From a virus, in IMG/VR virus record IMGVR_UViG_3300048587_000158, positions 1-38,677 of that record: a stretch of 38,677 nucleotides of DNA; one strand, written 5' to 3'. Positions within the stretch are counted from its first letter, which is position 1; each line of letters opens with the position of its first letter. Of this stretch, positions 2,278 through 20,361 are shown one piece after another. Both the position numbers and the translations under genes were made by a program. The notes under the pieces are model-generated. The model worked only from the letters and a program-made list of their open reading frames with translations, made no database searches and was not told the origin of the DNA.

Positions 2278-5200
2278 CGTCGGCCTGCTTTGATCGCGTC
2301 AGTTTGCCGCTCGGTCGCGCGCGTTTGCGCGTCGGCTGCGGTGCGGGTTGTCGTTTCGAGTTGCGCCAGACGTTGTTCAAGCCGGCGCGTGTATTCGTCC
2401 GCTTCGCGGCGTTCGCGGCGTAGCTCGCGGAGTTCGGCGACGAGCAGGTTATCGGACGTGCCGGCCGGCGCGCCCGAGCGGCGCAGCGCGGCGTTGACCT
2501 GCGCAGGTATGACCGCCTCGCCGCGGTGCAAGTAGGCGAGGCCATCGGCGGGAACGAACGGAGTGCCGACGGCGTAACCAGGCGGCTGAATGCCGATCGG
2601 GCCGGTGCCCGGCCCGCCGGTGCCGCCCAGTCCGGGGCCTGGCTGCAGGCCGCTCAGCGCACCGATGCCGGCTAGGATGTCGCCGAGGATCGTGGTCTGT
2701 GTCTGCAGCTCGGTCAGGCTGGTGCCGAGCGTCGATTCGACGGACGTGAGAACGGCCAGTTGCGTTGCCGGGTCGGCTGGCGTGATGGCCAGAAAGTACG
2801 GGGCCAGCATGTCGCGCAGGTCCGGCGACAGATCTGCGATGGCATCTTCCATCGCGCCGATGCCAGCCTCGACACCCGCTGTATCGCCCAGCGCCGCGGC
2901 CTCTTCGACATCGCGCAGCAGCGGTTCCAGAAGGTCACGCTGACCCTGCGGAAGCGCGGCAATCTCCGCCTCCAGTGCGTCGTTGAGCAGCGACTGGCGA
3001 TCGGCCAGCGACCCGAGGTCGACGCCAACCGACGCGGCCAGCGCGGACAGTTCGGTCCCGGTCGCCTGGGCGATGTCGGCGAGCTGCGAGGCTGTGGCGA
3101 CGGTAAGGTCGTCGAGATTGACGCCGAGGTCGGTGACCAGGTCGGACATTTCAACGCCGAGCGTTGCGGCGATCTCGTCGAGCGGCCGGCCGGTGGCGAT
3201 GACCAGGTCGCGGATGACGGCGGCCAGTTCGGTCGCCAGCGCCCGGCGCTCGGCGGTGGCCTGCTCTGCGGCCAGGGCATCTCGCTCGGCGATCAGTGCG
3301 GCAAGGTCAGGATTGACGCCGCCGAATCCGCCGCCATCGACGCCGACACCGGGACCGCCACCGCCGCCTACAGGCTCGGCAATCGCCAGCCCGGCAACCT
3401 GCGTCAGTGCGTCGCGGATGGTGTCGCGCAGATCGAAGTAGGGATCGCCGGATGCGTAGACCCGCTGCCCGAGGCGCAGCAGCTGATCGGCCAGCCCCGG
3501 CAGCGCGGCCATTGCCTCAGCATCTCCACCAAGGGCTGACGCCAGTGTGCGATCAAAAAGCGCCTGCGCCTCGACCAGGGCATCGCGCGGGCGCAGCCCG
3601 CCGAGGTCGCCGATCATCAGGTTGTCGAGCCAATCGCGGATTCGCTGCTGCGCGCCGATCTGCGCGGTCACGGCGTTGTCGACCGCTTGCGTCACCTCAT
3701 TCATGCCGCCCGCCCAGCTGGACGTGGCCGCGCCCGCGCTGGCCTGCATCTCGGCGATCTCGCGGTCGAGGCGCTCCAGCTGCGTGCCGTAGAGCTGCTG
3801 CACGATGTCGCGGCCGCTCTGCTCCAGTCGGGCGATGGCCTCCGCGGCGCGGATGGCGGCCAGCTGGTGCGCGGCGGCCAGATCAGCCTCGGCGGCGCCC
3901 TGCATGCCAGCAGCGCGGGCCGCGGCGTTGAGGCTGGCGATCATGCTGGCGAGGTCGCGGTCGATGTCGCGCATCGACTGCGCGAACTCGGACATGCCGC
4001 TGGCTGCGGCCAACTCGTCGTTGATGCCGCGCACCAGGTCCGCGTACTGCCCGTAGGCTGCGGCCTGGTCGGCCAGCACCGCGCCGACTCGCGCCGCGCC
4101 GAGTTCGCGGATCTGCGCCAGCTGCTGCTCGGTGGCACCCAGCGCCGTCGCCCGGGCAATCATCGCCTCGGTCTCGGTGTTGATCGCGGCCAGCTGCTGC
4201 GCGAACGTGGCCGGCGGCGCGAACTCGGCGAGCTGGTCGGTGACGCTTGTCATCAGATCGGACAGCGAGCCGCTGACCTGGTCGATGGCATCGGTAGCCT
4301 CGCCGGTCATGTCGATGACGACGCCGAGCGCCTGGGCGAACTCCAGCCACTCGACGATGGCCTCCGCAGTGAGCGTCGGCAGCGCGGCCTCGAACAGCGC
4401 ACGGAACGCCTGCGCGCCCGCAGCGCCCTCGAAGTCAGTCGCGTTCAGGCCGATATCCGCCGCCTGCGTGGCTGCGTTGGCGCGCGCCTGCTGCAGCGCA
4501 TAGGCCGCGCGCTCGTCGGCGGTGTAGAAGGTTTCGAAGTAGGCGGACCAGAGCGACGTGGCGCGCTCGAGGCCGCCGGCTGCGGCGGTGATGTCGGCGG
4601 CGAAGCGGATCATCTCCTCGCGCGTCAGGTCGATCGATGTGCCGGAGAGGTCGAGGGCTTCGTCAAGCAGGCTCACCGAGCCGAGCAAGCGCGCGTAGGT
4701 GGCGCCGATTTCCTCGGTGCCGACGCGGTAGTCGGTCAGCAGATCGGCAACTTCAGCGAAGGTGTCGCCGAGCGTTCCGAGGTCGACGATCTTCTCGATC
4801 TGCAGGGCTTCGGCCAGGCGGCCGACGCGCTCTTCGAGTTCGCCAGCCGTGCCCACGAACGCGACAACGTCGGCAGAGAACTCGCCGAGGATCGCCCCGA
4901 AGCGGGCATCGAGGGCCTCGCCGACCGTGGCCGCGCCGTCGCGGAAGGTGTCGTTGACCGCGCTGAGCCGATCGCGCACGGCGGCCAGCTGGTCGGCGTT
5001 GAGCAACCCGGCGATCAGGTTGTCGAAGTCCTTGATTCGGCCGGCGATCTCGACCGCCGCGCCGTCGCCCAGGCTTTCGCCGCGCACGAAGATGGAGCCG
5101 AGGTCGGACTGCTCGACGCCCCTCGCACGGCGGTCGCCGTTAAACTGCGACGAACGGACGCGGAGGATGGTCTCCTGATCTTCGCCGAAGATCTGCGTAA

Positions 5201-7499
5201 GCGCGGCAACGGCGCCGACGATCAAGCCGACCGGGCCCAGCAGCAGGCCCACGCCCTGCATGAAGGCACCGCCCGCAATCGAGGCGACGCCGGCGCCGAT
5301 GCTGCCGGTGATGCCGCCGATCAAGCCAGCGCCGCTGAAGATGCTCGCGGATGCCAGCATGCCGGTGCCCAGGCCGCCGCCAAGCAGGGAGCCAGCACCG
5401 CCAAGCAGGGAGCCGAGGATGCCGCCGGATCCGACAGCGCCTGCGCCGCCCGAACCGGCGCCTCCAGAAAGCGCCCCAAGCAGAGACCCGGCGCCAGTGA
5501 CGCCAGCCCCGCCGACGTTGAAGATGCTGCGGAACACGTTCATCAAGCCGGACGCGATCAGCTCGCGCTTGAGATCATCCAGCAACTTCTTGAAGTAGCT
5601 CTTGACGCCCTTCGATCCGTCGAGCACGGCGCCGGCCAGGCCGTAGGAGAAATCCTCCCACGCGCGCGCCGACTCTTCAGCCGCGCGCCGGGCATCTTCG
5701 CCAGCCCGATAGTTCACTTCCTCAATCGTCAACTGGAGCTTGCGCCACGCGTCGTCGCCGATCTTGGCAGCCAGCGCCAGTTCGTCGGCGGTCGCCGGGC
5801 CTTCCATGCGGATCAGCGCAAGCTGAGTCTTGACGTCTTCAAGCGTGCGCTCGTAATCCTGCCATGCCTGCTCGGCCGGGCCGCCGAGGTCTGCGCTGAG
5901 TGCGTTCGCCATCTCGCGCAGAGTGTCGCGCGCACCGGCGGCGCCGTCGGCCACTTGGCGATTCCAGTCGTCGAATCGCTCGGCCTCTTCGGCCGCTTCC
6001 TTGAATGCGTCGGCCGCCTCTTTGGTTGCCTTCGCCTGATCCTTCAGCGTTGGGCCAAGGCGCAGCGACTGATCGCGCAGGGCGGCCAGCTTTTTCTCCC
6101 ACTCGGCGAGACGCTTGTTTCCGTCGGCGATCTCGCCGTTTGCGGACGCGATGGTGCCTTGCAACTCTTCGATTCGATCACGCAGTGAGGCGGCAGCCGC
6201 AAGCTGCGTCGACGACACAATCGCAGCGCCGCCGATCGCCGCCTGCGCGCCAGGTTCGCCGCGCGGACCCATGCGCAGACCTTCCATGATCCGCAGGTTC
6301 AATTGCGCCTTGGCCTCAGCCGCGAGCAAGTCAGCCTTAGCGGCCTTCAGCGCAGCCTCGGCATTCTCCCGCTGGGCCTCTGCTGCAATGATCGCCGGAC
6401 GAATGCCGTTGCCCTGCGCCTCTTTGAGCAGGTCGACAGCCTTCACGAGCGACTCGTTCGCCACCGCTGCCTTGTCGGAAGCGCTTTCGTAGTCGTACAT
6501 CGCTACCGCCACGGCAGCGATGCCGGTGACGAGCAGCCCGATCGGCCCGCCCACAAGCCCAAGCGCCGCGCGGAATACGCCAGCCGCCGCAGCGGCAGCC
6601 GTAAACCCGCCAGCCGTCGAAACCAGCGCCGTTCCGAGCGAGATCAGCGCCCCGGCGACCAGTCGCGTGGCAATGAACACAGCCAGTTCGTCGACGTACT
6701 GCGCGGCCTCCTTGATGCCATCGATCCACGCCGACAGCGTGCCGTCTTCGCGTATGCCCTTGGCGAAGTCGATCGCCGCCTGCGATAAGTCGAGCAGCGT
6801 CGGCAGTAGTTCCTGCGCCACCGTGTTGCCGAGGCCCATCGCTGCGTCCTGCAACTTCGACAAGTTGTCGTTGAACTGCTCAGCAGCGTCAGTCGTCGCG
6901 CCGGAGAAAACGATTCCGAGCGCCTCGGCTTCCTTGCCCATCGCCGCCAGGCCATCGCGGCCGGAGATCAGTAGCGGCAGCAGCTCGGCGCCACTCTTTC
7001 CGAACAGTGCCTGCGCTGCCGCAGACCGCTCGGTCGCATTGCCGAGCTTGCTGATCTGCTCTGCGGAGTCTGCAAACAGCTCGGCAGCGGATCGCATGCG
7101 CCCGTTGGAATCGGTTGCGCTGATACCGAGTCGCGCCAGGCTTTCGCCGCCCATGTCGGCCTCTTTGGCCAGACGCGCGAGCGCTTTCTCAATGGTCTCA
7201 AGCGACGCGCCGGATTGCTCGGCAGCGAACTTGAGCTTGCTGATTTCCTCTGCAGACGCGCCCGTCTTCTTTGCGGCCTTGCCGACAGCATCGGCGGTGT
7301 TGATCGCCTTTTGCGTCAGCACCCCGAGCGCGGTAGCGGCCGCAGCAGCACCGGCGCCGATGGCGACGCCGAGCTGCTTTGCGCTGTCCGCCCATGCCTT
7401 CCTGACTTCCTCGGCGCGCCTCTTTGCCTCCTTCGACGCCCGATCCATATCGGTGACGAAAGTGCCAGTCAGCGCCTCAAGGACAATGGAAATCTTCAT
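2274..7499 (-). CDS. Tail tape measure protein, 1741 aa
   Basis: Longest gene, directly after the tail chaperones, with the composition typical of tape measures: Ala-rich, long helical stretches, several hydrophobic segments (around residues 275-330 and 680-780) and coiled coils. ATG 7499-7497 overlaps the stop of the T-like gene (TGATG). The N-terminus (MKISIVLEALTGTFVTDMDR) is of lambdoid/HK97 type. At the usual 1.5 A per residue it would set a tail of about 260 nm (inference). Around residues 1440-1505 are tandem 11-residue repeats with the pattern L-x-x-L/I-x(4)-G-V/T-x. No peptidoglycan hydrolase motif was recognised. Confidence 0.93.
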   Translation of the reverse strand: MKISIVLEALTGTFVTDMDRASKEAKRRAEEVRKAWADSAKQLGVAIGAGAAAAATALGVLTQKAINTADAVGKAAKKTGASAEEISKLKFAAEQSGASLETIEKALARLAKEADMGGESLARLGISATDSNGRMRSAAELFADSAEQISKLGNATERSAAAQALFGKSGAELLPLLISGRDGLAAMGKEAEALGIVFSGATTDAAEQFNDNLSKLQDAAMGLGNTVAQELLPTLLDLSQAAIDFAKGIREDGTLSAWIDGIKEAAQYVDELAVFIATRLVAGALISLGTALVSTAGGFTAAAAAAGVFRAALGLVGGPIGLLVTGIAAVAVAMYDYESASDKAAVANESLVKAVDLLKEAQGNGIRPAIIAAEAQRENAEAALKAAKADLLAAEAKAQLNLRIMEGLRMGPRGEPGAQAAIGGAAIVSSTQLAAAASLRDRIEELQGTIASANGEIADGNKRLAEWEKKLAALRDQSLRLGPTLKDQAKATKEAADAFKEAAEEAERFDDWNRQVADGAAGARDTLREMANALSADLGGPAEQAWQDYERTLEDVKTQLALIRMEGPATADELALAAKIGDDAWRKLQLTIEEVNYRAGEDARRAAEESARAWEDFSYGLAGAVLDGSKGVKSYFKKLLDDLKRELIASGLMNVFRSIFNVGGAGVTGAGSLLGALSGGAGSGGAGAVGSGGILGSLLGGAGSLLGGGLGTGMLASASIFSGAGLIGGITGSIGAGVASIAGGAFMQGVGLLLGPVGLIVGAVAALTQIFGEDQETILRVRSSQFNGDRRARGVEQSDLGSIFVRGESLGDGAAVEIAGRIKDFDNLIAGLLNADQLAAVRDRLSAVNDTFRDGAATVGEALDARFGAILGEFSADVVAFVGTAGELEERVGRLAEALQIEKIVDLGTLGDTFAEVADLLTDYRVGTEEIGATYARLLGSVSLLDEALDLSGTSIDLTREEMIRFAADITAAAGGLERATSLWSAYFETFYTADERAAYALQQARANAATQAADIGLNATDFEGAAGAQAFRALFEAALPTLTAEAIVEWLEFAQALGVVIDMTGEATDAIDQVSGSLSDLMTSVTDQLAEFAPPATFAQQLAAINTETEAMIARATALGATEQQLAQIRELGAARVGAVLADQAAAYGQYADLVRGINDELAAASGMSEFAQSMRDIDRDLASMIASLNAAARAAGMQGAAEADLAAAHQLAAIRAAEAIARLEQSGRDIVQQLYGTQLERLDREIAEMQASAGAATSSWAGGMNEVTQAVDNAVTAQIGAQQRIRDWLDNLMIGDLGGLRPRDALVEAQALFDRTLASALGGDAEAMAALPGLADQLLRLGQRVYASGDPYFDLRDTIRDALTQVAGLAIAEPVGGGGGPGVGVDGGGFGGVNPDLAALIAERDALAAEQATAERRALATELAAVIRDLVIATGRPLDEIAATLGVEMSDLVTDLGVNLDDLTVATASQLADIAQATGTELSALAASVGVDLGSLADRQSLLNDALEAEIAALPQGQRDLLEPLLRDVEEAAALGDTAGVEAGIGAMEDAIADLSPDLRDMLAPYFLAITPADPATQLAVLTSVESTLGTSLTELQTQTTILGDILAGIGALSGLQPGPGLGGTGGPGTGPIGIQPPGYAVGTPFVPADGLAYLHRGEAVIPAQVNAALRRSGAPAGTSDNLLVAELRELRRERREADEYTRRLEQRLAQLETTTRTAADAQTRATERQTDAIKAGRR

Positions 7500-7864
7500 C
7501 AGGTTATCCGGTCGATGGAGTCGAGGATTTCGAGATCGTTCTCTGAGTAGCGCCCATCCGTGCGGCGCCAGACGCGGCGGAACAACATGAAGCGCTCAAG
7601 GTCGGCGCGCGACTCGCTGTGAGCGTTGTGGTACTGGCACGACAAGTAGGCGAGCCCGTATTCCAGGCGCTCAGTCGGCGCAGGTTCGCGCGCGAGATAG
7701 GCGCCGAGCAGGTGAACATCGGATGCCGGCCAACCCAGCACGACAGACGGCGGCTGCCCCATCAAAAAGGACAGCCGCACGACATGCCGCAGCGCCGGAT
7801 TAGCCGACAGGCTCTCCCGATTCGGTCGCCCGCCTGCCGAACTCTGCGGACGCCTCGCGGGCAA
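7499..7864 (-). CDS. Tail assembly chaperone extension (lambda T-like), start uncertain
   Basis: Open frame overlapping the end of the G-like chaperone gene by 65 nt and ending at the tape-measure ATG. The segment from NPALRHVVRL onward resembles the T part of lambda-type G-GT chaperones (helical, with the LMGQPPSVVLGWPAS segment and ERLEYGLAYL). The only in-frame start in the overlap is a weak TTG at 7864, so T is probably made as a C-terminal extension of G by ribosomal frameshift. Its frame requires a +1 (or -2) shift from G, not the -1 of lambda. I could not pick a convincing slippery site. Confidence 0.6.
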   Translation of the reverse strand: MPARRPQSSAGGRPNRESLSANPALRHVVRLSFLMGQPPSVVLGWPASDVHLLGAYLAREPAPTERLEYGLAYLSCQYHNAHSESRADLERFMLFRRVWRRTDGRYSENDLEILDSIDRIT

Positions 7865-8144
7865 TGGAGACCATGCCGGCCACTTTGCTGGCGGGTTCGT
7901 CCTGGAGCTTGCCGAGTCCGCTGTAGACGGGCTTGCCGTCTTCGGTGACCAGCGTCATCTGCAGCAGGCGCTGGCCGCGCTCGCCCTCGAACGCGAGATC
8001 GAGCGTCATTTCGGACACGCCCTCGCGGACCGTGCTCTTGTAGCCGGCGCTCAACTTGACTTGCTCTCCAGCGGTGAGTTCGCGGAAGTGCAGCGTCTTG
8101 GTTTCGCCGCGGTAGGTGAATTGCTTTTCGATCAGGTCCATCAT
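7800..8144 (-). CDS. Tail assembly chaperone (lambda G-like), 114 aa
   Basis: Acidic-basic small protein (MMDLIEKQFTYRGETKTLHF) between the tail tube and tape measure, the standard place for the tail chaperone that binds the tape measure during tail assembly. ATG at 8144 has AAGGA five bases upstream and is preferred over the longer frame to 8180, which lacks a Shine-Dalgarno sequence. It ends with TAA at 7802-7800, inside the T-like frame. Function is inferred from position, size and the overlapping second frame. Confidence 0.65.
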   Translation of the reverse strand: MMDLIEKQFTYRGETKTLHFRELTAGEQVKLSAGYKSTVREGVSEMTLDLAFEGERGQRLLQMTLVTEDGKPVYSGLGKLQDEPASKVAGMVSIAREASAEFGRRATESGEPVG

Positions 8145-8170
8145 AATTCCTTGGCCGTTGACAGGTGCCA

Positions 8171-8219
8171 GCCGGCGCACAGCAGCGCACGGCGAACGCG
8201 CTGCTTTGCGTGCGCCGAC
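8171..8219 (-). other. Long hairpin between tail tube and chaperone genes
   Basis: Inverted repeat: 8171-8180 pairs with 8210-8219 (9 of 10), and AGCAGCGC at 8181-8188 pairs perfectly with 8198-8205, leaving a 4-nt bulge and a 9-nt loop. No U-tract follows on the minus strand, so it is not a canonical terminator. It may attenuate or protect the tail-tube mRNA so that tube protein is made in excess. The rest of 8145-8261 holds no gene that I can see. Confidence 0.6.
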
Positions 8220-10542: not shown

Positions 10543-11030
10543 TCGACGGTTGCTCCCGGAAGGTCCCAATAAATCGCGCTGTCGCGCACCAGCACCAGCG
10601 TCCCGCGCACGTAGTCGCCAACCTGCACGTCGTGTGAGATTTTCAGCACCTTCCCGAGAAACTCGGCACTGGTCGCGCCTGCGCTCACGATGCGCCCGTT
10701 GGTGACCGTGGTCGGCGCCGGCGTATCGCGACCGAATGCGACCAGGAACGAGGCCTGCACGCGCGCATCGCGCATGGCCATCAGTGCCTGGTGCGATGCC
10801 GACCGCGCGTCGAAGTTGTACGGGATGGTGATCTGCGCCGGGATGTGCGGCCCGATCGACCAGCTTGGCACGGCGCCATCTCTCAGGACGGCCTGCGCGT
10901 CGCTGTCGTCCAGTCCGGAGATTCCGGACGGGCACCTGATCTTGATGACCTCGACGCCCTCGGAGCTGCTGTAGAGCGGCGAGAGGTCTGTGGCTACATA
11001 GAGCCTTGTTCCCGCGGTCGCGAGCGTCAC
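10539..11030 (-). CDS. Second tail-tube-like protein, 163 aa
   Basis: GTG at 11030 overlaps the glycosyltransferase stop (GTGA). The protein shares the fold signature of the tail tube gene at 8262-8780: TAGTRLYVA versus TKGTKLYFG; IKIRCPSGISGL versus HKVACPTGVTGL; SASHQALMAMRD versus SEAHQALMAAED; VGDYVRGTLVL versus VGEYVRATVTV. Roughly a third of aligned residues look identical by eye. Its position, upstream of the connectors, is abnormal for a tube protein. It could be a minor tube, a neck ring or a decoration protein. Confidence 0.75.
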   Translation of the reverse strand: MTLATAGTRLYVATDLSPLYSSSEGVEVIKIRCPSGISGLDDSDAQAVLRDGAVPSWSIGPHIPAQITIPYNFDARSASHQALMAMRDARVQASFLVAFGRDTPAPTTVTNGRIVSAGATSAEFLGKVLKISHDVQVGDYVRGTLVLVRDSAIYWDLPGATVE

Positions 11031-11707
11031 AGGTACGCCTCCGCGTCTTCGCCGATCCACTCGCGCAGGATGCGGTGATCTGGGTCATGGGTGCCGCCCA
11101 TCTCGAGACTGTGACCGATGCCGATGCCGCCGCGTCCCGGAAGTCCCTTGATTCCAGTCACCTGCGTTCCGGCGAACAGGTGCCGGCTGTGCGCCTCGCG
11201 CCAGAGCTGCAGGTCGATGAACTTGTCCGCGCGCTTCAGGATGTGGCGCATCTCGTCGATTGCCGGGCCGCTGATCGCGGTCGAGCACAACGACGCGCGC
11301 TGCCCGTTCTCAAGCTGGCGCGCGATGCGGGCCGGCAAGTTGTAGTAGCGAGCCCGCGGCGTTCCGACAACATCGGCGCGCGGCGCATGCTTCGCGACCG
11401 CATCAAGCCACGTCGGCGCGTAGTGATCATCATCCTCGATGAACACTACGACATCCTCGCGCATGCAGGCGTCCAGTCCCTTGCTCAGGTTGCGCGCCTG
11501 AGTGTTCTGCCCATGCTGCCAGAACGGCGCCGGGCGGATCAGAACCAGTTCCCAGCCTGCGCGCCTGAACGTGATCGGCTGCGGCTCCTGGCCGTCGTCG
11601 ACGATCACCCAGCGCACAGGGCCGGCGTAGGTCTGCGCCATCATCCAACGCTCGCACAGCGCCCACGCTTCAGGTCGCGCGCCGGTTGCCGTCAGTAGCG
11701 TCAGCAT
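11027..11707 (-). CDS. Glycosyltransferase family 2-like protein, 226 aa
   Basis: N-terminus MLTLLTATGARPEAWALCERW followed by RWVIVDDGQEP, a GT-A nucleotide-binding start with DDG, and VVVFIEDDDHYAPTWLDAV, the DxD metal/UDP-sugar motif. Then ARYYNLPAR and a W-rich C-terminal half with HDPDH. The family moves a sugar from an NDP-donor to an acceptor. Overlaps the next gene by 4 nt. Placed in the capsid gene cluster, so it may decorate the virion or modify a host glycan (inference). Confidence 0.75.
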   Translation of the reverse strand: MLTLLTATGARPEAWALCERWMMAQTYAGPVRWVIVDDGQEPQPITFRRAGWELVLIRPAPFWQHGQNTQARNLSKGLDACMREDVVVFIEDDDHYAPTWLDAVAKHAPRADVVGTPRARYYNLPARIARQLENGQRASLCSTAISGPAIDEMRHILKRADKFIDLQLWREAHSRHLFAGTQVTGIKGLPGRGGIGIGHSLEMGGTHDPDHRILREWIGEDAEAYL

Positions 11708-12207
11708 GTCGTGCGCCAGTTGTAGTGGGTGAGCGCCCGGCTGTCGTAGCCCATCCGCGCCGTCTTTGCGATGGCAGCTATCAGCAACCCGTCGCCGTTG
11801 TACTTGTTCGGCAGCCGATGCCCGCCGATTGCGGATCTGCGCGCGACGAATTGCGCCGCATCAACGCGATCGACGACAGCGCACGGCGGCGCAACCTTGC
11901 TGCCGCGACGCTGCGCGAAGATCACTACATCAACGGGCCGGGCGTCGTACTCGGCAACCGCCTGCAACATTGCCGGCTCCAGCTTGTTGTCGTCGTCGCC
12001 GATCCACACCCAGCCCGGATCGGACCCCGGGATGCTGTCGAGCATCCGGTTCTTGACCGCCTGCCCGCCGACATACTGGCGCCCGATGTCGAAAGCGACG
12101 TGCCAGCGTAAGTCGATGCCTGCAAGTTGCGATGCGTCGGCCATCTCGGCCGCCCACGCCGGCAGAAACTCAGGCCGCGCGCAGGCTGTCAGGACGTGCA
12201 GGATCAC
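11701..12207 (-). CDS. GT-A fold glycosyltransferase-like protein, 168 aa
   Basis: GTG at 12207 overlaps the methyltransferase stop (GTGA). Reads VILHVLTACARPEFLPAW, then a W-V-W-I-G-DDD-N motif (DxD) and LPNKYNGDGLLIAAIAK. This is a small GT-A-like protein of the type found in phage structural cassettes. It lacks the C-terminal acceptor half of a full GT2, so it may act with its neighbour. Overlaps the following GT2-like gene by 7 nt. Confidence 0.6.
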   Translation of the reverse strand: MILHVLTACARPEFLPAWAAEMADASQLAGIDLRWHVAFDIGRQYVGGQAVKNRMLDSIPGSDPGWVWIGDDDNKLEPAMLQAVAEYDARPVDVVIFAQRRGSKVAPPCAVVDRVDAAQFVARRSAIGGHRLPNKYNGDGLLIAAIAKTARMGYDSRALTHYNWRTTC

Positions 12208-12797
12208 AGGTAGACAACCCCGATGCCGCCCCACTTGCCATTGCCAGCGATGATCTCGTCTGTGCGGTAGGCCGCTTTGATCTCAGCCCACAGCCGCGCG
12301 ACTTCGATCTCTGGGTGCGCAACCGGGTTGTCGACGATGTCGTGAAACGGCACGACTGCGCCTGGTGCGGCCAGTTCGCGATACGCCTCCCAGTCGGCGC
12401 GGGCCGCCTTGTATCGGTGATCGCCGTCAATCATCAACCAGTCGAAAGGCCCGTACTTTGCCGCTCGCGCGACGGTCTCCGCGCCGTGACTGTTGCCAGC
12501 AATAGCGACTACTTGCGCGCCAATTTCTGCCGCCCAGTCGCCGTATCGGTGCCGGTTGTCAGCAAACGGCATGTTGTACAAATCGACGCTGACGACAGTC
12601 GCGCCGGGTTGAGCGCGCCGGATGAACTGCTTCAATGTGCCGCCGAAGTAGCTGCCGACCTCGAGGACGCGCGCCGGCTGCCGATGTTCGTAAAGCGCGA
12701 GCATCCACTCCATCTCGGCAGGATGTTGGAATACCGGAACCTCGGCGTCGCCGTCTGTCCAGTAGACGCACTTCTGGTCCTGCTTCGGGTGATTCAT
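12204..12797 (-). CDS. Class I SAM-dependent methyltransferase-like protein, 197 aa
   Basis: Residues 43-55 RVLEVGSYFGGTL form SAM motif I (E-x-G-x(3)-G); VVSVDLYN gives motif II with the acidic ribose-binding Asp; FDWLMIDGDHRYKAARADW is the typical motif IV/post-IV of the Methyltransf_24 group, with DGDH. Ends in PFHDIVDNP. Acceptor unknown. ATG overlaps the preceding gene (ATGA). The fold is also used for sugar and macrolide O-methylation, which fits the glycosyltransferases alongside. Confidence 0.8.
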   Translation of the reverse strand: MNHPKQDQKCVYWTDGDAEVPVFQHPAEMEWMLALYEHRQPARVLEVGSYFGGTLKQFIRRAQPGATVVSVDLYNMPFADNRHRYGDWAAEIGAQVVAIAGNSHGAETVARAAKYGPFDWLMIDGDHRYKAARADWEAYRELAAPGAVVPFHDIVDNPVAHPEIEVARLWAEIKAAYRTDEIIAGNGKWGGIGVVYL

Positions 12798-13378
12798 GCT
12801 CTCGCCAATTCCTGTTCAAGATCACCGCGCGGGAAGCATTCGAGCCTCGTCGAGCGCGTGCAGTTGATGACTTCAACGCCGAGGCGCGCGAGGTGCGCGG
12901 CGCACTTGGCGAAGCGTTCGGGCCACTCGTTGACGCTCTTGGCGTTGCCCAGCTCCGGCGGGTGATCGCCGTGGCTGTGCGTCTTGCCGCCGGTGTACTG
13001 GCAGTCATAGCCAACCATCAGAATCCGGCGCGCGCCGAAGTGCGCAGCCAGCGCCAGCGCGGCCGTTCCTGAGTTCGAGAAATGCGGCGACGGCGCTTCC
13101 TTCGCGCCGGGCCTGCGCTTGCCGCTAAATGCCTCGCCGGGAAAGCTGGCGATCACGTCGCGTGCGTAGCGCTTCCACCATGGCGCGTCCAGCGCGTAGA
13201 GCGCATCCGCCCACGGCGCCGACTGAAACATGGTGTTGGTGACGACTACTCCGCGGCGGCCCGCTTGCTGCGCTTCTTCTTCGGTTCGCCATCGTCGGAT
13301 GCGGGCGATGTCGTCTGCGGTGCAGCTGGGGCCGCTTGCGATGCAGACGGCGACTCGCCAGCGGTTTGGGCCAAAGGG
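12794..13378 (-). CDS. DUF115-like protein, copy 2, reached by -1 frameshift
   Basis: The conserved segment WRVAVCIASGPSCTADD lies upstream of the only in-frame ATG (13231), yet the open frame (from 13492) has no ATG, GTG, TTG or CTG before it. Joined to the overlapping gene 13246-13515 by a -1 shift at C CCT TTG (13378-13372), it would give a product of about 240 aa. Visible features are the GPS motif, APWADALYALD, WWKRY, FSNSGTAALALA, GARRILMVGYDCQ, GDH and a C-terminal ECFPR. These recall the DUF115/MptE-like family (sugar or pterin transfer), but the assignment is uncertain. A 133-145-aa protein starting at the internal ATG is the alternative. Confidence 0.6.
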   Translation of the reverse strand, partial: PFGPNRWRVAVCIASGPSCTADDIARIRRWRTEEEAQQAGRRGVVVTNTMFQSAPWADALYALDAPWWKRYARDVIASFPGEAFSGKRRPGAKEAPSPHFSNSGTAALALAAHFGARRILMVGYDCQYTGGKTHSHGDHPPELGNAKSVNEWPERFAKCAAHLARLGVEVINCTRSTRLECFPRGDLEQELARA

Positions 13379-13515
13379 GCGGCGGGGTTTCCGCCGAAAG
13401 CGACGAGCCCTTTCTCCCGCAGATCGCGCGCCAAGGTGCTGGTGATGTTGAGCTGCTGGCCGCCGCGTACCTTGCGGCCGTTGTGGGCGAACTCAGCGGT
13501 TACCGTAACGATCAT
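13246..13515 (-). CDS. Small capsid-adjacent protein, copy 2, 89 aa
   Basis: ATG at 13515 overlaps the stop of the preceding gene (ATGA). N-terminal half MIVTVTAEFAHNGRKVRGGQQLNI resembles the small proteins encoded just after phage capsids (FxHNGxxxxxGxxxxI). After residue 45 it becomes Ala/Ser/Pro-rich and ends in a basic tail (KKKRSKRAAAE). Same arrangement as 13961-14266. The C-terminal half overlaps the conserved start of the DUF115-like frame, so one stretch of DNA is read in two frames. Function unknown. Confidence 0.6.
   Translation of the reverse strand: MIVTVTAEFAHNGRKVRGGQQLNITSTLARDLREKGLVAFGGNPAAPLAQTAGESPSASQAAPAAPQTTSPASDDGEPKKKRSKRAAAE
13372..13378 (-). promoter_or_regulatory. 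Candidate -1 ribosomal slippery heptamer
   Basis: On the minus strand the bases read C CCT TTG, with zero-frame codons CCT TTG (residues 47-48 of the small gene) and -1 codons CCC TTT. This matches the X XXY YYZ pattern and lies directly before the start of the conserved DUF115-like frame. In copy 1 the equivalent position is C CCT ACC, which matches only at the first codon. A 3' stem is not obvious. Confidence 0.5.
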
Positions 13516-14099
13516 GAATCCTCCAATGCCTGCTCCAGCGCCATGCGCGGGAAGCAGGTAAGTGCTGTCTGGCGCGATGCGTTGATAACCGACACACCCT
13601 GTCTCCGGATGTCGGCGGCCAGCTTACGGAACTGTTCCGGCCACTTCGGCAGGCTTCCAGCGTTTCCGAGTTGCTTGATGTGGTCGCCGTGCCAGTGCGA
13701 CATGCCGCCCGTGCGCTGGCAGTCAAAGCCGACCATGACGATCCTGCGCGCGCCGCGAGCTGCTGCGAGCGAGATCGCCGCGGCCCCGCTGTTGCTGTAG
13801 TGCCTGACGGCGCCGATGCTGTTGACTGCGCGCACCGGCGCAGCCGAAACGCGCTCCCCACCGAATCCGGCCAGGACGGCGCTTGCGTAGATTGACCACC
13901 ATTTCCCATCCATCGCAAACAGCAGGTCAGCCCATGGGCACAGCTGCCATGTGTTGTTGGTTACGAAGACTCCGCGGCCTTCTTCCGCTTGTCCCGCTTC
14001 GCCTTGCCCACGCCATCGCCTGACGAGATCGCAGTCGTCCGCGGTGAGGCTTGGGCCGCTTGCGATGCAGACGACAGTCCGCCAGCGGCCTCGGTAGGG
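13512..14099 (-). CDS. DUF115-like protein, copy 1, reached by -1 frameshift
   Basis: Paralogue of 12794-13378: WRTVVCIASGPSLTADD, CPWADLLFAMDGKWW, SNSGAAAISLA, GARRIVMVGFDCQ, GDH, LTCFPR. As in the other copy the conserved N-terminal segment precedes the first usable ATG (13913), and between the upstream stop (14126) and it I find no ATG, GTG or TTG. It must be read by -1 frameshift out of the gene 13961-14266, giving about 250 aa, or it is silent apart from the 133-aa product from ATG 13913. Slip site unclear (C CCT ACC at 14099-14093 is only partial). Confidence 0.6.
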   Translation of the reverse strand, partial: PYRGRWRTVVCIASGPSLTADDCDLVRRWRGQGEAGQAEEGRGVFVTNNTWQLCPWADLLFAMDGKWWSIYASAVLAGFGGERVSAAPVRAVNSIGAVRHYSNSGAAAISLAAARGARRIVMVGFDCQRTGGMSHWHGDHIKQLGNAGSLPKWPEQFRKLAADIRRQGVSVINASRQTALTCFPRMALEQALEDS

Positions 14100-14266
14100 G
14101 TCCCTTTGTTTTCCGGAGATCCGCTAATCGCCATGACCTCGCGCACCATGCGGTTACGGCACAGCTCGTCGATGTAGGAGCCCTCGCCCTCGATCCGCTC
14201 GTTCATACGAACAATCTTGCGATTGTCGGATCGCCGGAACGTCCTGAGACAAATTGCTGACTTCAT
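13961..14266 (-). CDS. Small capsid-adjacent protein, copy 1, 101 aa
   Basis: ATG 14266 (MKSAICLRTFRR) follows the terminator at 14284-14303; the apparent longer frame to 14308 only translates the terminator, so it is rejected. Similar organisation to 13246-13515, notably the tail: LSSASQAAQASPRTT versus SPSASQAAPAAPQTT and the basic ends KAKRDKRKKAAES versus KKKRSKRAAAE. The N-terminal 45 residues differ. Function unknown; it lies in the first position after the capsid gene. Confidence 0.55.
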   Translation of the reverse strand: MKSAICLRTFRRSDNRKIVRMNERIEGEGSYIDELCRNRMVREVMAISGSPENKGTPTEAAGGLSSASQAAQASPRTTAISSGDGVGKAKRDKRKKAAESS

Positions 14267-14303: not shown

Positions 14304-14329
14304 TTCATTCACTGCTGATGCTCGGTCGG

Positions 14330-15583
14330 TTAGATCGAGCTGCCGTCCAGGTCGCCATGCACGAAGGCCAGCGGGCGCTTCACCGCGAGCGCCAGGCGCT
14401 CTTCGAACAGGATCGAAACCATGTTCGTGATGAAGTCGTCTTCGTTCTCCGTGGAGATGTAGACCGCCGCGGCCATCCGGTCGTAGATGGTCGCGGCCGT
14501 GCGGAACGCGCCCACCATGAACTCGCCCGCCGGCATCGCGTCGGACTCCGACACCGGCAAGCCCCACAGGCGGGCCGGTGCGCCACTGGTGGCGGTGCTG
14601 AACAGATAGCGGTTGTCGCTGTCCTTCAGCAGCTCGATGGCCGCCCAATCTGCCGGGTTCAGCACGATGCCGGTCGCGCCGTAGAACGACTGGCGAACCT
14701 GCAGGATCGCCCGGCGCAGCACGTCGACATACTGATCGCCGACCTGGACCGCCGAAATGTCGAACGTGGTCGCTTGCGGGATCAGTCCGAGGATGTTGAT
14801 CCCGGTGCCGTCACCGGACATCAGCTGGTCTTCCTCGACCTGCTTCAGCATCTCGAAGCCTTCCACGTTGATCTCGCCGCGCAGGCGGGCAAAGTCCGCC
14901 AGCACTTCAGCCGAGGTCTTGAAGTAGTGCGCGATCTTGCGGACCGGCGTTTCCTTGCGGTCGTAGGTCAGATCGGACTGCGGCTTCGTTCCGGTCTCCG
15001 AAACCATGCTCGCGTTGTTGGTGCGGACGTTGGTCTGCACCCACTCGATCAGGTTCGAATTCACCGGGATGGTCGGGATCAGGTCGCGGATCATGCGCGG
15101 CCGATACGGGTCGGACACGATATCCGGATCACGGAAGGACCAGATGCCATCACCGGCCGATGCCGAGCCCGAGGTGATGTCCTTCAGCTCGATCAGATCC
15201 GACTGCCCTTTGCGGCGCAGCTTCACCGGACCGCTGCCGTCGATGCCCTGGAGCTTCGCGAACTGCTTGACGGCATCGGAGCCGACCACGATATCGCCGA
15301 GCGTGCGACGATCCTTGCTGCCTTTTGCGCCCTTCGCGGCTTCGGTGACCAGCTGCTCGACCTGACCAAGGCGAGCGTCCATCTCCTTCTCGCTCTTTTC
15401 GGCTTTCTTGCCCAGCTCGGCGATCTCGTTTTTCAGGTCTTCGCTGACCTTGCCATGGTCCTTGATCTGCTGGTCGGACTTGGCGATGACGTCGGTTAGT
15501 TCCTTGGACTTCGCGTTGAAGCCCTCGACGATCCGCTTGATTTCGGCGCTGATCTCGTCGATCGGCTTGGTTCCATCTGGCAT
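14330..15583 (-). CDS. Major capsid protein, HK97 fold, 417 aa
   Basis: Acidic/Lys-rich coiled-coil N-terminal 95 residues (IKRIVEGFNAKSKEL onward) act as the internal scaffold (delta domain), removed by the protease; then the HK97 fold with LIPTIPVNSNLIEWVQ, SMVSETGTKPQSDLTYD, LADFARLRGEINVEGFEML, GIVLNPADWAAIELLKDS and RLWGLPVSESDAMPAGEFMVG. ATG preceded by AGGGGA at 6-8 nt spacing. Order protease-capsid as in HK97. The delta-domain cleavage site is not certain, probably around residues 95-100. Confidence 0.95.
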   Translation of the reverse strand: MPDGTKPIDEISAEIKRIVEGFNAKSKELTDVIAKSDQQIKDHGKVSEDLKNEIAELGKKAEKSEKEMDARLGQVEQLVTEAAKGAKGSKDRRTLGDIVVGSDAVKQFAKLQGIDGSGPVKLRRKGQSDLIELKDITSGSASAGDGIWSFRDPDIVSDPYRPRMIRDLIPTIPVNSNLIEWVQTNVRTNNASMVSETGTKPQSDLTYDRKETPVRKIAHYFKTSAEVLADFARLRGEINVEGFEMLKQVEEDQLMSGDGTGINILGLIPQATTFDISAVQVGDQYVDVLRRAILQVRQSFYGATGIVLNPADWAAIELLKDSDNRYLFSTATSGAPARLWGLPVSESDAMPAGEFMVGAFRTAATIYDRMAAAVYISTENEDDFITNMVSILFEERLALAVKRPLAFVHGDLDGSSI

Positions 15584-16261: not shown

Positions 16262-17542
16262 TCAGGTCTCCGGCTGCTTCAGCCAGTGCATGAGCGCGGC
16301 GCGCACCGCGTTGGAGTCGGAATCGGTGCTGCCGAGCTGGTCGATCGGAATCAGCGCGGATTGAACGGTGAAGATGTCGCCGCCAGGGATTGGCTGCAGA
16401 TCCTCAAGCTCTCTAACTTCGTTTCTGCTCATCCATCCGTGGTCCAAGGCGGATGAGTAGAACGACGTGCGGCCGGCTGTGTCAGCGCGCAGCAGGCCCT
16501 CGACCGAGAACTTCGGGAAAGTGTCGATTTGCTCGACTGGCGAGAGCAGCTGAAACCTGATGGCATCTTCGAACCGCTTCAGCCAGGAATTCAGCCCGTA
16601 CTGCAGGAACCACAGGTTCATTGCCTCCGAACTGCTCGCCCAACTCGACGCCTTGGACGTGTGCCCGATCATCGGAGGCGGAACGCCGAACCATCGGCAG
16701 ATTTCCTCGATGTCGAAGCCGCGGCTTTCGAGCAGCTGCGCATCAGCAGGGTCGATGCCGATCTCGCCGACCTCGATGCCGCCCTCAAGAACCGGCGGCT
16801 TGCCGGCGTTCAGTGATCCGTGCAACTTGTCGATTGTCTGATCGCGGAAGGTGTCGCGCTGCTCTGGCGTCAGCCACTTCGGGTACTTGTAATACGTGGT
16901 CGGCATCAGCCCGTTTTTGAACGTGCCCTTTGCCGCATTGTTCGCAGCAAGCGCGCCGCCGATGACCTCGGCGCCGTACTGGATCACGGACAAGCCGAAA
17001 GGCCCGCAGGTTGTGAATCCAGGGACATGCAGAACGTCGCGTTGCGGAATCTCCCGGAATGTCCCGTCCGGCTCGGTGTAGCTGAACAGGTAGGACCTGT
17101 CCGCCTGCCGTGCCCAGCGCAACCGATCAGGGTGCAGGAAGGTCAGCCCAACGACCCTTCCGCCGATTCGATCAATCTCCGCGAACCCATCGCCGCGAAG
17201 CATCGCGCTCGCCGCCATGCACTCCCACAAGATCGACGAGGTCATGCGCAGGTTTGCGCGCATCCCGATGATCCGGTTCAGCGGGTGCCGCTCATCGTAG
17301 ATGCGCCGCCCGCCGTCCTTCTTGTAGATGCCGACCGGCAATGATCCGATGGTCTGCGCGACCAGGCGCGTGCACGCCCATACCGCGGAGAGCGTGAGCG
17401 CCTCGCCCGCATTCACGCGGACGCCGGACTTCGAATCCTGACCCATGAACTGGCGCCAGTGTTCGACGTCGGACCATCCGAACCCCAGCCAGTTCAGAAC
17501 TGCCGACTTGATCCGACCTGGCTTGCGGGCTTTGTTCGTCAT
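16262..17542 (-). CDS. Portal protein, HK97 family, 426 aa
   Basis: Contains ALTLSAVWACTRLVAQTIGSLPVGIYKK, the conserved portal N-terminus, DVLHVPGFT, the basic EICRWFGVPPPMIGHTSKASSWASSSEAMNLWFLQ clip/wing segment, and ELEDLQPIPGGDIFT at the C-terminus. These are the hallmarks of phage portals of the HK97 type. ATG overlaps the terminase stop (ATGA). It forms the dodecamer through which DNA is packaged. Confidence 0.95.
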   Translation of the reverse strand: MTNKARKPGRIKSAVLNWLGFGWSDVEHWRQFMGQDSKSGVRVNAGEALTLSAVWACTRLVAQTIGSLPVGIYKKDGGRRIYDERHPLNRIIGMRANLRMTSSILWECMAASAMLRGDGFAEIDRIGGRVVGLTFLHPDRLRWARQADRSYLFSYTEPDGTFREIPQRDVLHVPGFTTCGPFGLSVIQYGAEVIGGALAANNAAKGTFKNGLMPTTYYKYPKWLTPEQRDTFRDQTIDKLHGSLNAGKPPVLEGGIEVGEIGIDPADAQLLESRGFDIEEICRWFGVPPPMIGHTSKASSWASSSEAMNLWFLQYGLNSWLKRFEDAIRFQLLSPVEQIDTFPKFSVEGLLRADTAGRTSFYSSALDHGWMSRNEVRELEDLQPIPGGDIFTVQSALIPIDQLGSTDSDSNAVRAALMHWLKQPET

Positions 17543-20361
17543 CGTCCGGTCACCGGGTTGGAAAGGAAGCCATCGATGTCACCTTCCGGCAACACCGAAA
17601 GGGCTACGCCGACCGCCATGTAGAGAGCAGCCATGTCGTCGATCTTGTCGGGACTCCGGCGCTTGTCCGGGGCCATGTTCATGTTCGCGTCGTAACGCGG
17701 TATCAGGTTACTCGCGCACCAGCGCAGCACCGGGTCTCCGCCGTGCACAAGGTCGCCGGATCGGTACGCCCGGTCCACCTCCTGCATCGCCGGGTGATAG
17801 GACTTCGGTCCCTGAATGAACCGCACCAGCGGCAAGCCGTCTTCCAGCAACCGGTTGCTCAAGTCCTTTGCGTTCCAGTCGTCAAACGCGATCGACTGCG
17901 GCGAGAACCTTGCGACATCCTCGCGGATGGCCTGCTCGATCACCGCATAGTCGACGGTGTCGCCGCCAGTCTGGCTGACGTGGCCGCCCTCGACCCATGC
18001 TGCGTAAGTGTTCGCGCCTCGCTGCGTCCGGTGCCTCACGGCTTCTTCCGGCACCCAGCGCCGACCCCATGTGTACCACTTGCCGTCGACGCGCCAGACG
18101 AGCCGCCATGCGGTCATGTCGGTGGTGCTGGACAGGTCCAATCCAGCCCAGCACGGGTACTGAGCCAGCCAGTCGAGGTTTATCGCCCCGTCGCAGCGGT
18201 TCCACTTGCGAATGTCGATCAGCGACTTCGCGTTGCTGCTCTGCCGGTTCAAGCGCTTGATCCGGAACTCGGCGAGCTTGCCGGGCATGGCCCGCGCTTC
18301 GATCGCTTCTTTCCGGATCGCCGCCAAAAGATGCGGGTTCGCATCGGCCAGCGGGTTGGCCTTGATCCATGCCGTCTCGTCGAAGTCTTCATCCTCGTCG
18401 TCGACGGCGAAGAACAGCGCAAGGAAGTGGTCGGCCGTTACGCCGAGAACACCCTCAAGCACCTGGCGCGCGAAGTGGCGAAGCTCAGGCCACGGCCCGG
18501 GCGTTTCATATCCCTCGGTCGTCGTGAACAGCCACAGCGGCGAACTGCGCGCGCCGGCAGCGGACTGCAGCACGTTCAATAGGTCGCCCGACTTGTGGGC
18601 GTGGATCTCGTCGAGCGCCGTGTGCGACGGGTTCAGGCCGTCTTGCGTGCTGGCCTTCGCGTTGATCGGCTTAAAGCCCGCGCCGGTCTCAAGTCGCGTG
18701 ATCGCGTTCGCCCAGCACTCGAGGCCGAACGCCTCGCGCAGCGCGGACTTCTTCTCCGCCATCCGCTTGGCCACGTTCCAGATGATCCGCGCCTGGCTGC
18801 CGGTAGTCGCTGCGCTCACCAGCTGCGCGCCTGGCTCATCCTCGCAGCACATGCAGTACAGCATGATCGCTGCGGCCAGAGTGCTGTTGTGCGTCAGCAG
18901 CATGGACTTGCCAAACAGAAACAGACTGTCCGGCGCATCGACAGTGATGCACTTGACCGGCACGGGCGGAACTCGATCCGCCGCAACGATTTGCACCGTT
19001 CGCGACCGCGGCGTTCCTGCTTGATCCAGCATCCGATCCAGTTTGCGACGCAACCTGAAAACCGGAAGCTGGTCCCGGAATGCCATGAACTGCAGCTTGT
19101 GGCCGGTCCCTGAAACCTCGATGCCGTTGCAAACCAGTCGCTCCCGCCGCCACGAGTACTTCAATCCGAAGCTAGCAAGCAATTCCGCTACGCCGCGCGT
19201 TAGCTGTTCGCTGGTTGACGTGAAACTCAGGACTCTCCCGCTCTTGCTGATCGTTCCGTCGGTGTCCATCAGCCCCTGCAGAAGCGCAAGCCGCTGTTCT
19301 CGCGAGGCTCGAAGGTAGATTGCTGGAATCCCCTTGTTGCCAAGCACACCTGTCGCTCGCAGTTGAGCCGCGAGACTCTTATTGCGAGCGGACTGCGTAC
19401 GGTCGCCATCAGAAATGACGAACGTGGACGCCTTGCTGCCGTTGCAATACTTTTCCCGCACTGGCCAGCCATCAGCGCGAATGCCGTCGATGATCTCGAT
19501 GTCGTCGCGATCACATGTGATCCGCGCCGCCGCCGAGTGCCCGTCTCCAAGCCACGCACCAAGCGTGTATGGCGAGATAGGCAGCGATGCGACCGCACAC
19601 TGCAGCGGCTTAGGCATAAGAATCGAATGGTTCGTGTCGCCGCGCGCGCCACACTTCAGCGTCGCTGCGATTTCCTCCGTCGTTCGGACTCGCGTGCGAG
19701 TCGCGCCGTTGGATGTTCGCGCACCGTTCGGCTGATCGATTCGCGCCGATGTGAGCCAGCTATGACCCGCGTCCGCCACAACTTCTTCGCCGTTGCTGAA
19801 TTTCAGCCGGTAGCATTCGTGGTCAACGTAGACCGGGCTGACTGCCGTCACCGAACACGGCTTGCCATCAGCTCCGAACACCACATCACCCGGAGCCAGA
19901 TCGCCCATGGTCGACCAGCCCGAAGGCGTGGGGACCGGAGTATCCAACGCGAGCGCTTTAGCGTTCTTGCGCGCGACCGCGAACAGCGCCGACGTGAAGC
20001 GCCGCGTCTTGTCCGCCTTCCGAAAGCCGAACAGCTGCACCACGAAGAAAACGTGCGACGGATGCAGCACGATGTTCGGGGTTTCCCAAACGCCCTCGAC
20101 GTGCGGCAGCTTCTCGATGAAGTCGCAGGCGTTGTGTGCCTCCCACTCGTCGAACTTGAACGGCGCGCGCTTCCCCTTGGCGCGGCGTAGGTCATCGATG
20201 AATCGGCGCGCGGCGAGCTTAATCAGCCGGCCGAACTTCTTTCCCGAGCGGTCGGCGATGGCCTCGCGGGCGTAGCCTTCAGCGATCGCGACGTAGTCAC
20301 GCCCGCGGCTTGGCCTGCTTCCTGTTTTGCGTGAACTCGTTTTTCGCTGGCTCGTCGCCAT
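17539..20361 (-). CDS. terL: Terminase large subunit with inserted intein, 940 aa
   Basis: ATP-driven packaging motor and nuclease. Extein is 583 aa, the usual size. Walker A is split: residues 131-135 RKNAK, then the intein (136-492), then 493 STLAAAI; splicing restores RKNAKS. Walker B is ALDEIHAH. Nuclease: GLDLSSTTDM and SPDKIDDMAAL, the RuvC-like acidic motifs. ATG lies within the TerS reading frame (65-nt overlap with its end). The packaging motor should be inactive until splicing, since the P-loop Ser comes after the intein. See the intein entry. Confidence 0.96.
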   Translation of the reverse strand: MATSQRKTSSRKTGSRPSRGRDYVAIAEGYAREAIADRSGKKFGRLIKLAARRFIDDLRRAKGKRAPFKFDEWEAHNACDFIEKLPHVEGVWETPNIVLHPSHVFFVVQLFGFRKADKTRRFTSALFAVARKNAKALALDTPVPTPSGWSTMGDLAPGDVVFGADGKPCSVTAVSPVYVDHECYRLKFSNGEEVVADAGHSWLTSARIDQPNGARTSNGATRTRVRTTEEIAATLKCGARGDTNHSILMPKPLQCAVASLPISPYTLGAWLGDGHSAAARITCDRDDIEIIDGIRADGWPVREKYCNGSKASTFVISDGDRTQSARNKSLAAQLRATGVLGNKGIPAIYLRASREQRLALLQGLMDTDGTISKSGRVLSFTSTSEQLTRGVAELLASFGLKYSWRRERLVCNGIEVSGTGHKLQFMAFRDQLPVFRLRRKLDRMLDQAGTPRSRTVQIVAADRVPPVPVKCITVDAPDSLFLFGKSMLLTHNSTLAAAIMLYCMCCEDEPGAQLVSAATTGSQARIIWNVAKRMAEKKSALREAFGLECWANAITRLETGAGFKPINAKASTQDGLNPSHTALDEIHAHKSGDLLNVLQSAAGARSSPLWLFTTTEGYETPGPWPELRHFARQVLEGVLGVTADHFLALFFAVDDEDEDFDETAWIKANPLADANPHLLAAIRKEAIEARAMPGKLAEFRIKRLNRQSSNAKSLIDIRKWNRCDGAINLDWLAQYPCWAGLDLSSTTDMTAWRLVWRVDGKWYTWGRRWVPEEAVRHRTQRGANTYAAWVEGGHVSQTGGDTVDYAVIEQAIREDVARFSPQSIAFDDWNAKDLSNRLLEDGLPLVRFIQGPKSYHPAMQEVDRAYRSGDLVHGGDPVLRWCASNLIPRYDANMNMAPDKRRSPDKIDDMAALYMAVGVALSVLPEGDIDGFLSNPVTGR
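18886..19956 (-). mobile_element. Class-3-like intein with LAGLIDADG endonuclease, 357 aa, in TerL P-loop
   Basis: Starts at Ala136 (ALALDTPVPTPSGW) where most inteins have Cys/Ser, so the usual N-terminal nucleophile is absent. The three residues that define class 3 inteins are visible: Trp202 two residues after block B His200 (GHSWLT), Cys471 in block F (VKCITVDAP, position 4), and Thr490 before the terminal His491-Asn492; +1 residue Ser493. The endonuclease carries LGAWLGDGH (268-275) and LLQGLMDTDGT (360-370), the two LAGLIDADG (DOD) motifs, so homing may still work. GC of one sampled line is 60%. Confidence 0.92.

Follow-up and report, generated by a model that had tools for sequence, protein, structure and literature searches.

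The examples of −1 ribosomal frameshifting in phages that are given in PMC5009743 and PMC10885494 include the tail assembly chaperone genes G/G-T and the major head protein gene of Lactobacillus phage A2. In Escherichia coli, C CCA AAG is the most efficient slippery heptamer, attaining 54% with a strong stimulator, and slippage also takes place at C_CC.U, which is among the few tetramers measured to be slippery (PMC4066793). The lambda protein gpFI, as described in PMC4856287, binds the prohead lattice, and non-specific DNA binding has been proposed for it. Here, we examine a family of loci, spread over many unrelated phages, in which a small gene following the capsid gene very probably carries a programmed −1 ribosomal frameshift, a conclusion that derives from comparative sequence analysis.

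The window analyzed is the whole 38,677-nucleotide stretch of IMG/VR virus record IMGVR_UViG_3300048587_000158, and all of its features described below are on the minus strand. A gene for an HK97-type major capsid protein (14330..15583; PF05065, E 1.8e-48) lies directly upstream of the first of two overlapping gene units. The frame-0 small gene of copy 1 (13961..14266) encodes 101 amino acids with a pI of 10.1, comprising a small N-terminal domain and a basic C-terminal tail; its ATG is at 14266, a further in-frame ATG is found upstream at 14308, and by eye it resembles the small gene of locus L093. The enzyme ORF in the −1 frame (13512..14123, stop to stop; PHROG 4603, E 3e-52; domain from 14075) opens at 14123 just past a TAG and runs to the stop at 13512, and from 14123 on this strand there is no ATG, GTG or TTG ahead of VCIASGPSLTADD. 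Copy 2 has the same arrangement. Its small gene (13246..13515; 89 amino acids, pI 10.0; PHROG 7993, E 1.5e-7; AlphaFold2 pLDDT 84) encodes a domain resembling the C-terminal domain of gpFI in residues 1-42, followed by a basic tail, and its enzyme ORF (12794..13492, stop to stop; PHROG 4603, E 4.4e-47; domain from 13351), which opens at 13492 and is closed by the stop at 12794, has no start codon ahead of the GPS motif. A methyltransferase gene (Methyltransf_24, 12204..12797; PF13578, E 1e-13), the start of which overlaps the copy 2 stop, comes next, and a GT2-like glycosyltransferase match at 11027..11707 is weak, falling slightly short of the Pfam cut-off (PF00535, E 1.7e-4).

Two other features of the window deserve mention. 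The 940-amino-acid terminase large subunit (17539-20361) has an in-frame insert of ~370 residues with a LAGLIDADG_3 match (PF14528, E 2.3e-10), which is probably an intein. The ORFs 7800-8180 and 7499-7864 of the window overlap (7499-8180); they are flanked by the genes for the major tail protein and the tape measure, where the G/G-T frameshift pair is usually found.

In both copies the enzyme frame is −1 relative to the small gene and the VCIASGPSxTADD motif lies inside the overlap. The first-pass annotation of this DNA had described such an overlap, without ATG, GTG or TTG before the conserved motif, and we confirm it for both copies on the minus strand. The perfect C CCT TTG it had reported in copy 2 is also present (13372..13378), an X XXY YYZ heptamer in the correct phase, and a shift there would give a predicted fusion of 240 amino acids and 26.2 kDa with the junction ...NPAAPL|GPNRWR... 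or ...NPAAP|FGPNRWR.... The positions 14099 and 13378, which had been taken as gene starts, are not starts; they coincide exactly with the candidate slip sites. It had further been argued that both copies need the same −1 shift; that need stands, but the signal in copy 1 is weaker than had been implied. Its candidate site, C CCT ACC (14093..14099), forms no heptamer, only the Z_ZZN tetramer C CCT, which is the sole in-phase experimentally active tetramer near −39, and hence the slip efficiency of copy 1 may be low. Sequencing error, already considered unlikely, is not the cause, since two more contigs (L002 and L003) match the region at 100% identity. The notion of a tandem duplicated unit survives only in part. 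Two like units do adjoin each other; nonetheless, a recent tandem duplication of one unit was rejected, as the two enzymes are 55% identical and copy 2 pairs in the tree (support 100/100) not with copy 1 but with a sister unit from a different phage, L004, to which it is 79% identical in the alignment. The window copies are therefore old paralogues or were separately acquired.

Relatives of the window enzymes include orf7 of Pseudomonas phage D3, Psp6, Tetraselmis virus S20, PmgO of phage P1 and ORF010 of PAJU2. A profile search over the fetched loci yielded 154 distinct enzyme copies, which clustering reduced to 132 non-redundant ones; a genome scan gave two loci only (L163 and L164). No start codon is available to 46 of these 132 copies, and 43 of the 46 are accompanied by an ATG-led small ORF in the −1 relation. 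Three copies deviate: L123 is laid out likewise but its frame 0 ends just before the motif, the first ATG of L131 is beyond the cut-off, and L088 is situated at a contig end. In most overlap copies the start of the small ORF is about 160-340 nt ahead of the motif, and its end lies 13-184 nt beyond it; standalone copies typically have their ATG 18-78 nt before the motif. P1 PmgO and PAJU2 ORF010 belong to the same family (PHROG 4603) as the window enzymes, but neither overlaps a small gene or involves a frameshift, and each starts at its own ATG; since many relatives do have such an ATG, the fusion is not always needed. P1 PmgO has been scored as non-essential (PMC10695390). About 20 switches between the standalone and the frameshift forms are needed on the tree. 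Two peculiarities were seen in individual loci. A second, diverged GTGPSLT-type paralogue lies directly downstream of the frameshift unit in L011 (5596), L017 (5539), L020 (3083), L048 (3328) and L012 (4252). The −1-frame enzyme of L101, L127, L136 and L143 (enzyme ORF end ~3990-4510) carries an extra C-terminal stretch, so that the predicted fusion is much longer there.

Slippery sequences recur at a constant place in these loci. An in-phase slippery heptamer is present in 32 of 43 loci, compared with a mean of 8.6 (sd 2.5, max 19) in 2000 rounds of codon-order shuffling; for the two other phases the figures are 9 and 10. Relative to the GPS motif, the modal position of the slip site is 39 nt upstream. 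Where a heptamer is missing (11 loci), one of the tetramers C CCT, C CCC and T TTT is invariably in phase at −54 to −33, and these belong to the few measured as slippery in E. coli (PMC4066793). In that interval, an active in-phase tetramer occurs in 34/43 overlap loci versus 8/69 standalone controls. Phage D3 (orf6.5/orf7) has C CCA AAG at 5837-5843 and Tetraselmis virus S20 has C CCT TTG; 22 loci of the D3 group share, without any variation, the heptamer and ~30 surrounding nt, and differ in the flanks. Possible stimulators were apparent as well. RNA folding, computed against dinucleotide shuffles, peaks in the 60 nt directly 3′ of the site (mean z −1.08, se 0.19, n=44), with values of −0.24 to −0.40 at six other offsets; this downstream structure is a statistical trend over the loci and not a single conserved pseudoknot. 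The upstream excess of Shine-Dalgarno-like sequence is slight (mean duplex −5.0 vs −4.2 kcal/mol shuffled), and some loci (L018, L116, L093 and L100) have a strong one 5-15 nt ahead of the slip site. A stimulator, either 3′ structure or an upstream Shine-Dalgarno, is found over the loci as a set rather than site by site.

Both reading frames bear the marks of selection. When the Leu codon of GPSLT is CTG, TTG or TTA, it and the following A create a TGA or TAA in the small-gene frame. In the start-less copies this Leu is encoded by CTC or CTT in 38/38 cases, whereas a stop-creating codon is used in 28/47 other copies (Fisher p 4e-10). The Leu codon thus never stops the small-gene frame in start-less copies, which argues that both frames are selected. 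Beyond the motif, frame 0 continues for >25 nt without a stop in 46/46 start-less copies versus 35/72 standalone ones; its last 20 residues are more basic in the former (+4.8 vs +2.7), and motifs of the RGR/GRP/KKR type occur in its end in 32/46 versus 3/35. An open and basic frame 0 past the motif implies that the small protein with its tail is itself under selection.

In two loci, L010 and L028, the small domain and the enzyme are encoded in one frame. The L010 fusion sits in a portal-protease-capsid-connector module. Its AlphaFold2 model begins with strand-strand-strand-strand-helix-strand, as does the small-gene model, and the small-domain profile matches it weakly. The N-terminus of L028 is homologous to the small gene of a frameshift locus, L161 (42%, E 1e-9), with which it groups in the tree (99/59). 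Scans with the whole L010 and L028 fusions retrieved only L010 and L028 themselves; small fragments and full fusions were aligned separately (alignments A4 and A5). These natural fusions lend indirect support to a predicted fusion product in the frameshift loci.

The first-pass annotation had left a choice between a programmed frameshift and an unusual initiation, and the homologues from many phages strongly favor the former because of the constant −1 relation, the recurrent slip motifs, the 3′ structure, the dual-frame selection and the natural in-frame fusions. Were the enzyme instead started at an ATC, ATT or CTG inside the small gene, by coupled translation and without any fusion, one would expect such a codon before the fold begins; at least one ATT, ATC, ATA or CTG does lie upstream of the motif in 18/43 loci, and D3 relatives carry a GTG or TTG 63 nt before it, but 25/43 loci have no near-cognate start of this kind and some windows are reduced to 6-12 codons with nothing other than the slippery run (L018, L020 and L048). 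The D3 record starts orf7 at an ATC (NC_002484, 5951), but this codon falls within the enzyme domain, past the GPS motif. As the in-phase heptamers, the folding peak and the in-frame fusions would also be left unexplained, we regard unusual initiation as very unlikely. Current annotations imply another scheme, in which ribosomes that terminate frame 0 inside the enzyme gene restart downstream and make a truncated enzyme; the annotators of D3-like phages begin the protein inside the domain. Such termination-reinitiation is highly improbable, since it would sacrifice beta-1 and the GPS motif, of which the G and S are invariant (enzyme alignment A1), and since the protein that the enzyme frame encodes around GPS is conserved even between very diverged loci. 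The comparison of homologues that had been called for revealed no conserved ATG downstream of GPS: the first start past the motif is scattered from +54 to +276 nt.

Slippage could in principle affect the polymerase rather than the ribosome and produce an in-frame mRNA at A or T runs. Long A runs in L011 and L020 and T runs in L118 fit such transcriptional slippage, but the sites, those of the window and D3 included, are mostly mixed heptamers (C CCT TTG, C CCA AAG, G GGA AAA, A AAC CCC) at which polymerase realignment is not expected, and we give this explanation hardly any credence. The frequent switching of forms on the tree could also be the trace of fusion genes broken by indels, the second frame being untranslated. 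Yet even very diverged loci have retained an open and conserved enzyme frame, the relation is −1 with the slip site in a constant position, selection keeps frame 0 open, and the sister contigs are identical; the likelihood of gene decay is close to negligible. The evidence thus supports a programmed ribosomal frameshift in the family and in copy 2 of the window; copy 1 would need the same shift, with its weaker tetramer signal.

The occurrence and the rate of slippage are what we infer from these sequences, and the following scheme is proposed. Most ribosomes would finish frame 0 and make a protein of ~90-100 amino acids, in which a ~42-residue N-terminal domain, similar to the C-terminal domain by which gpFI binds the head, is connected by a linker to a tail rich in K and R. 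Some ribosomes would shift into the −1 frame at an X XXY YYZ heptamer or a Z ZZN tetramer, aided by local 3′ structure and sometimes by an upstream Shine-Dalgarno-like sequence. The −1 product would be a fusion of ~240 amino acids in which the same small domain is joined to a glycosyltransferase-like domain of Maf/GT42/MptE fold that replaces the basic tail. If the small domain, by analogy with gpFI, binds the capsid lattice, then the enzyme may thereby be placed on the capsid to modify the capsid protein, or be carried in the virion.

PHROG 4603 is annotated as alpha-2,3-sialyltransferase, and the fold of the enzyme domain is that of the Maf flagellin glycosyltransferase (Z 16.0), of the GT42 sialyltransferases CstI and CstII (Z 12.6 for CstII) and of MptE-type HPPK (Z 11.0; VIA-align, 146-178 residues over Maf, CstII and HPPK), these groups sharing with the enzyme domain only 12-18% identity and a fold of ~175 residues. 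Foldseek alone gave no match for the domain at E <= 0.001, and nothing credible was obtained with the enzyme profile among the sequences of solved structures. Pfam MptE-like is matched by 12/21 enzyme members tested (best E 3.7e-6); the window enzymes score 16.9 and 18.3 bits, below its curated cut-off of 34.6, and so are filed as a fold relative rather than a family member. At most, the residues that are invariant in the GPS and NSG motifs hint at nucleotide-sugar transfer. For the standalone relative PAJU2 ORF010 (AP009624, 7780-8349) the depositors' label is "structural protein," a hint that the enzyme family may be present in virions.

Methyltransferase and glycosyltransferase genes surround the loci, with a sulfotransferase-like gene recognized by eye in L010, and it is on account of these neighbors that a glycan modification of the capsid or virion is proposed. 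As a tentative model, which we rate somewhat below an even chance, the frameshift would be a switch that equips a capsid-binding domain with either a basic DNA-binding tail, as a packaging chaperone, or a glycosyltransferase and sets the dose of enzyme on the procapsid, the outcome being a sugar decoration of the head; the neighboring methyl-, sulfo- and glycosyltransferases would act together with the tethered enzyme.

None of the D3-like records inspected annotates a frameshift, and in them the enzyme is cut to begin inside the domain; in the main texts of openly available papers, we found no frameshift tied to a sialyltransferase, to D3 orf7 or to a phage glycosyltransferase. The analysis hence adds to the phage head module a widespread and unannotated gene with a probable frameshift, present even in the model phage D3, and corrects where the N-terminus lies in a large part of a protein family, whose D3 member is annotated with a truncated or ATC start. 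The capsid-adjacent small gene gains a testable role, and a way is suggested by which phages could direct a sugar-transferase to the capsid that they build. For comparative work on frameshifting in bacteria, the many natural sites (C CCT TTG, G GGA AAA, A AAC CCC, and C CCT as a tetramer) provide a set, and one tree suffices to trace where the shift was gained or lost.

Among described systems, the small gene may be compared with lambda gpFI. Both come right after the capsid gene (HK97-type and directly upstream in 10/10 tested loci, as well as in the window and D3), and the small beta-alpha-beta domain bears some resemblance to that of gpFI. The structural match to the gpFI C-terminal domain (2lsm) has a Z of 4.8 and an rmsd of 1.6 over 41/48 residues, with ribosomal L9-N and GINS scoring slightly higher, and the sequence likeness is weak (HMM E 0.019); Pfam DUF7210/DUF7302 is comparable as well, DUF7210 being matched weakly by 6/32 small-domain members. 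The basic tail is compatible with the non-specific DNA binding proposed for gpFI, although the order is reversed, with the domain first and the tail last. As gpFI binds the lattice and has a proposed DNA binding, it is a reasonable inference that the frame-0 product would be a packaging chaperone; the predicted second, enzyme-carrying product has no counterpart in gpFI. In that respect the likeness is to G/G-T and the A2 head protein, where, as predicted here, slippage by −1 close to the 3′ end of a gene in the structural module, with ORFs that overlap, yields a minor, C-terminally extended form. Unlike in those systems, however, the extension of the small gene would be a complete enzyme-like domain, and the gene lies between the capsid and connector genes.
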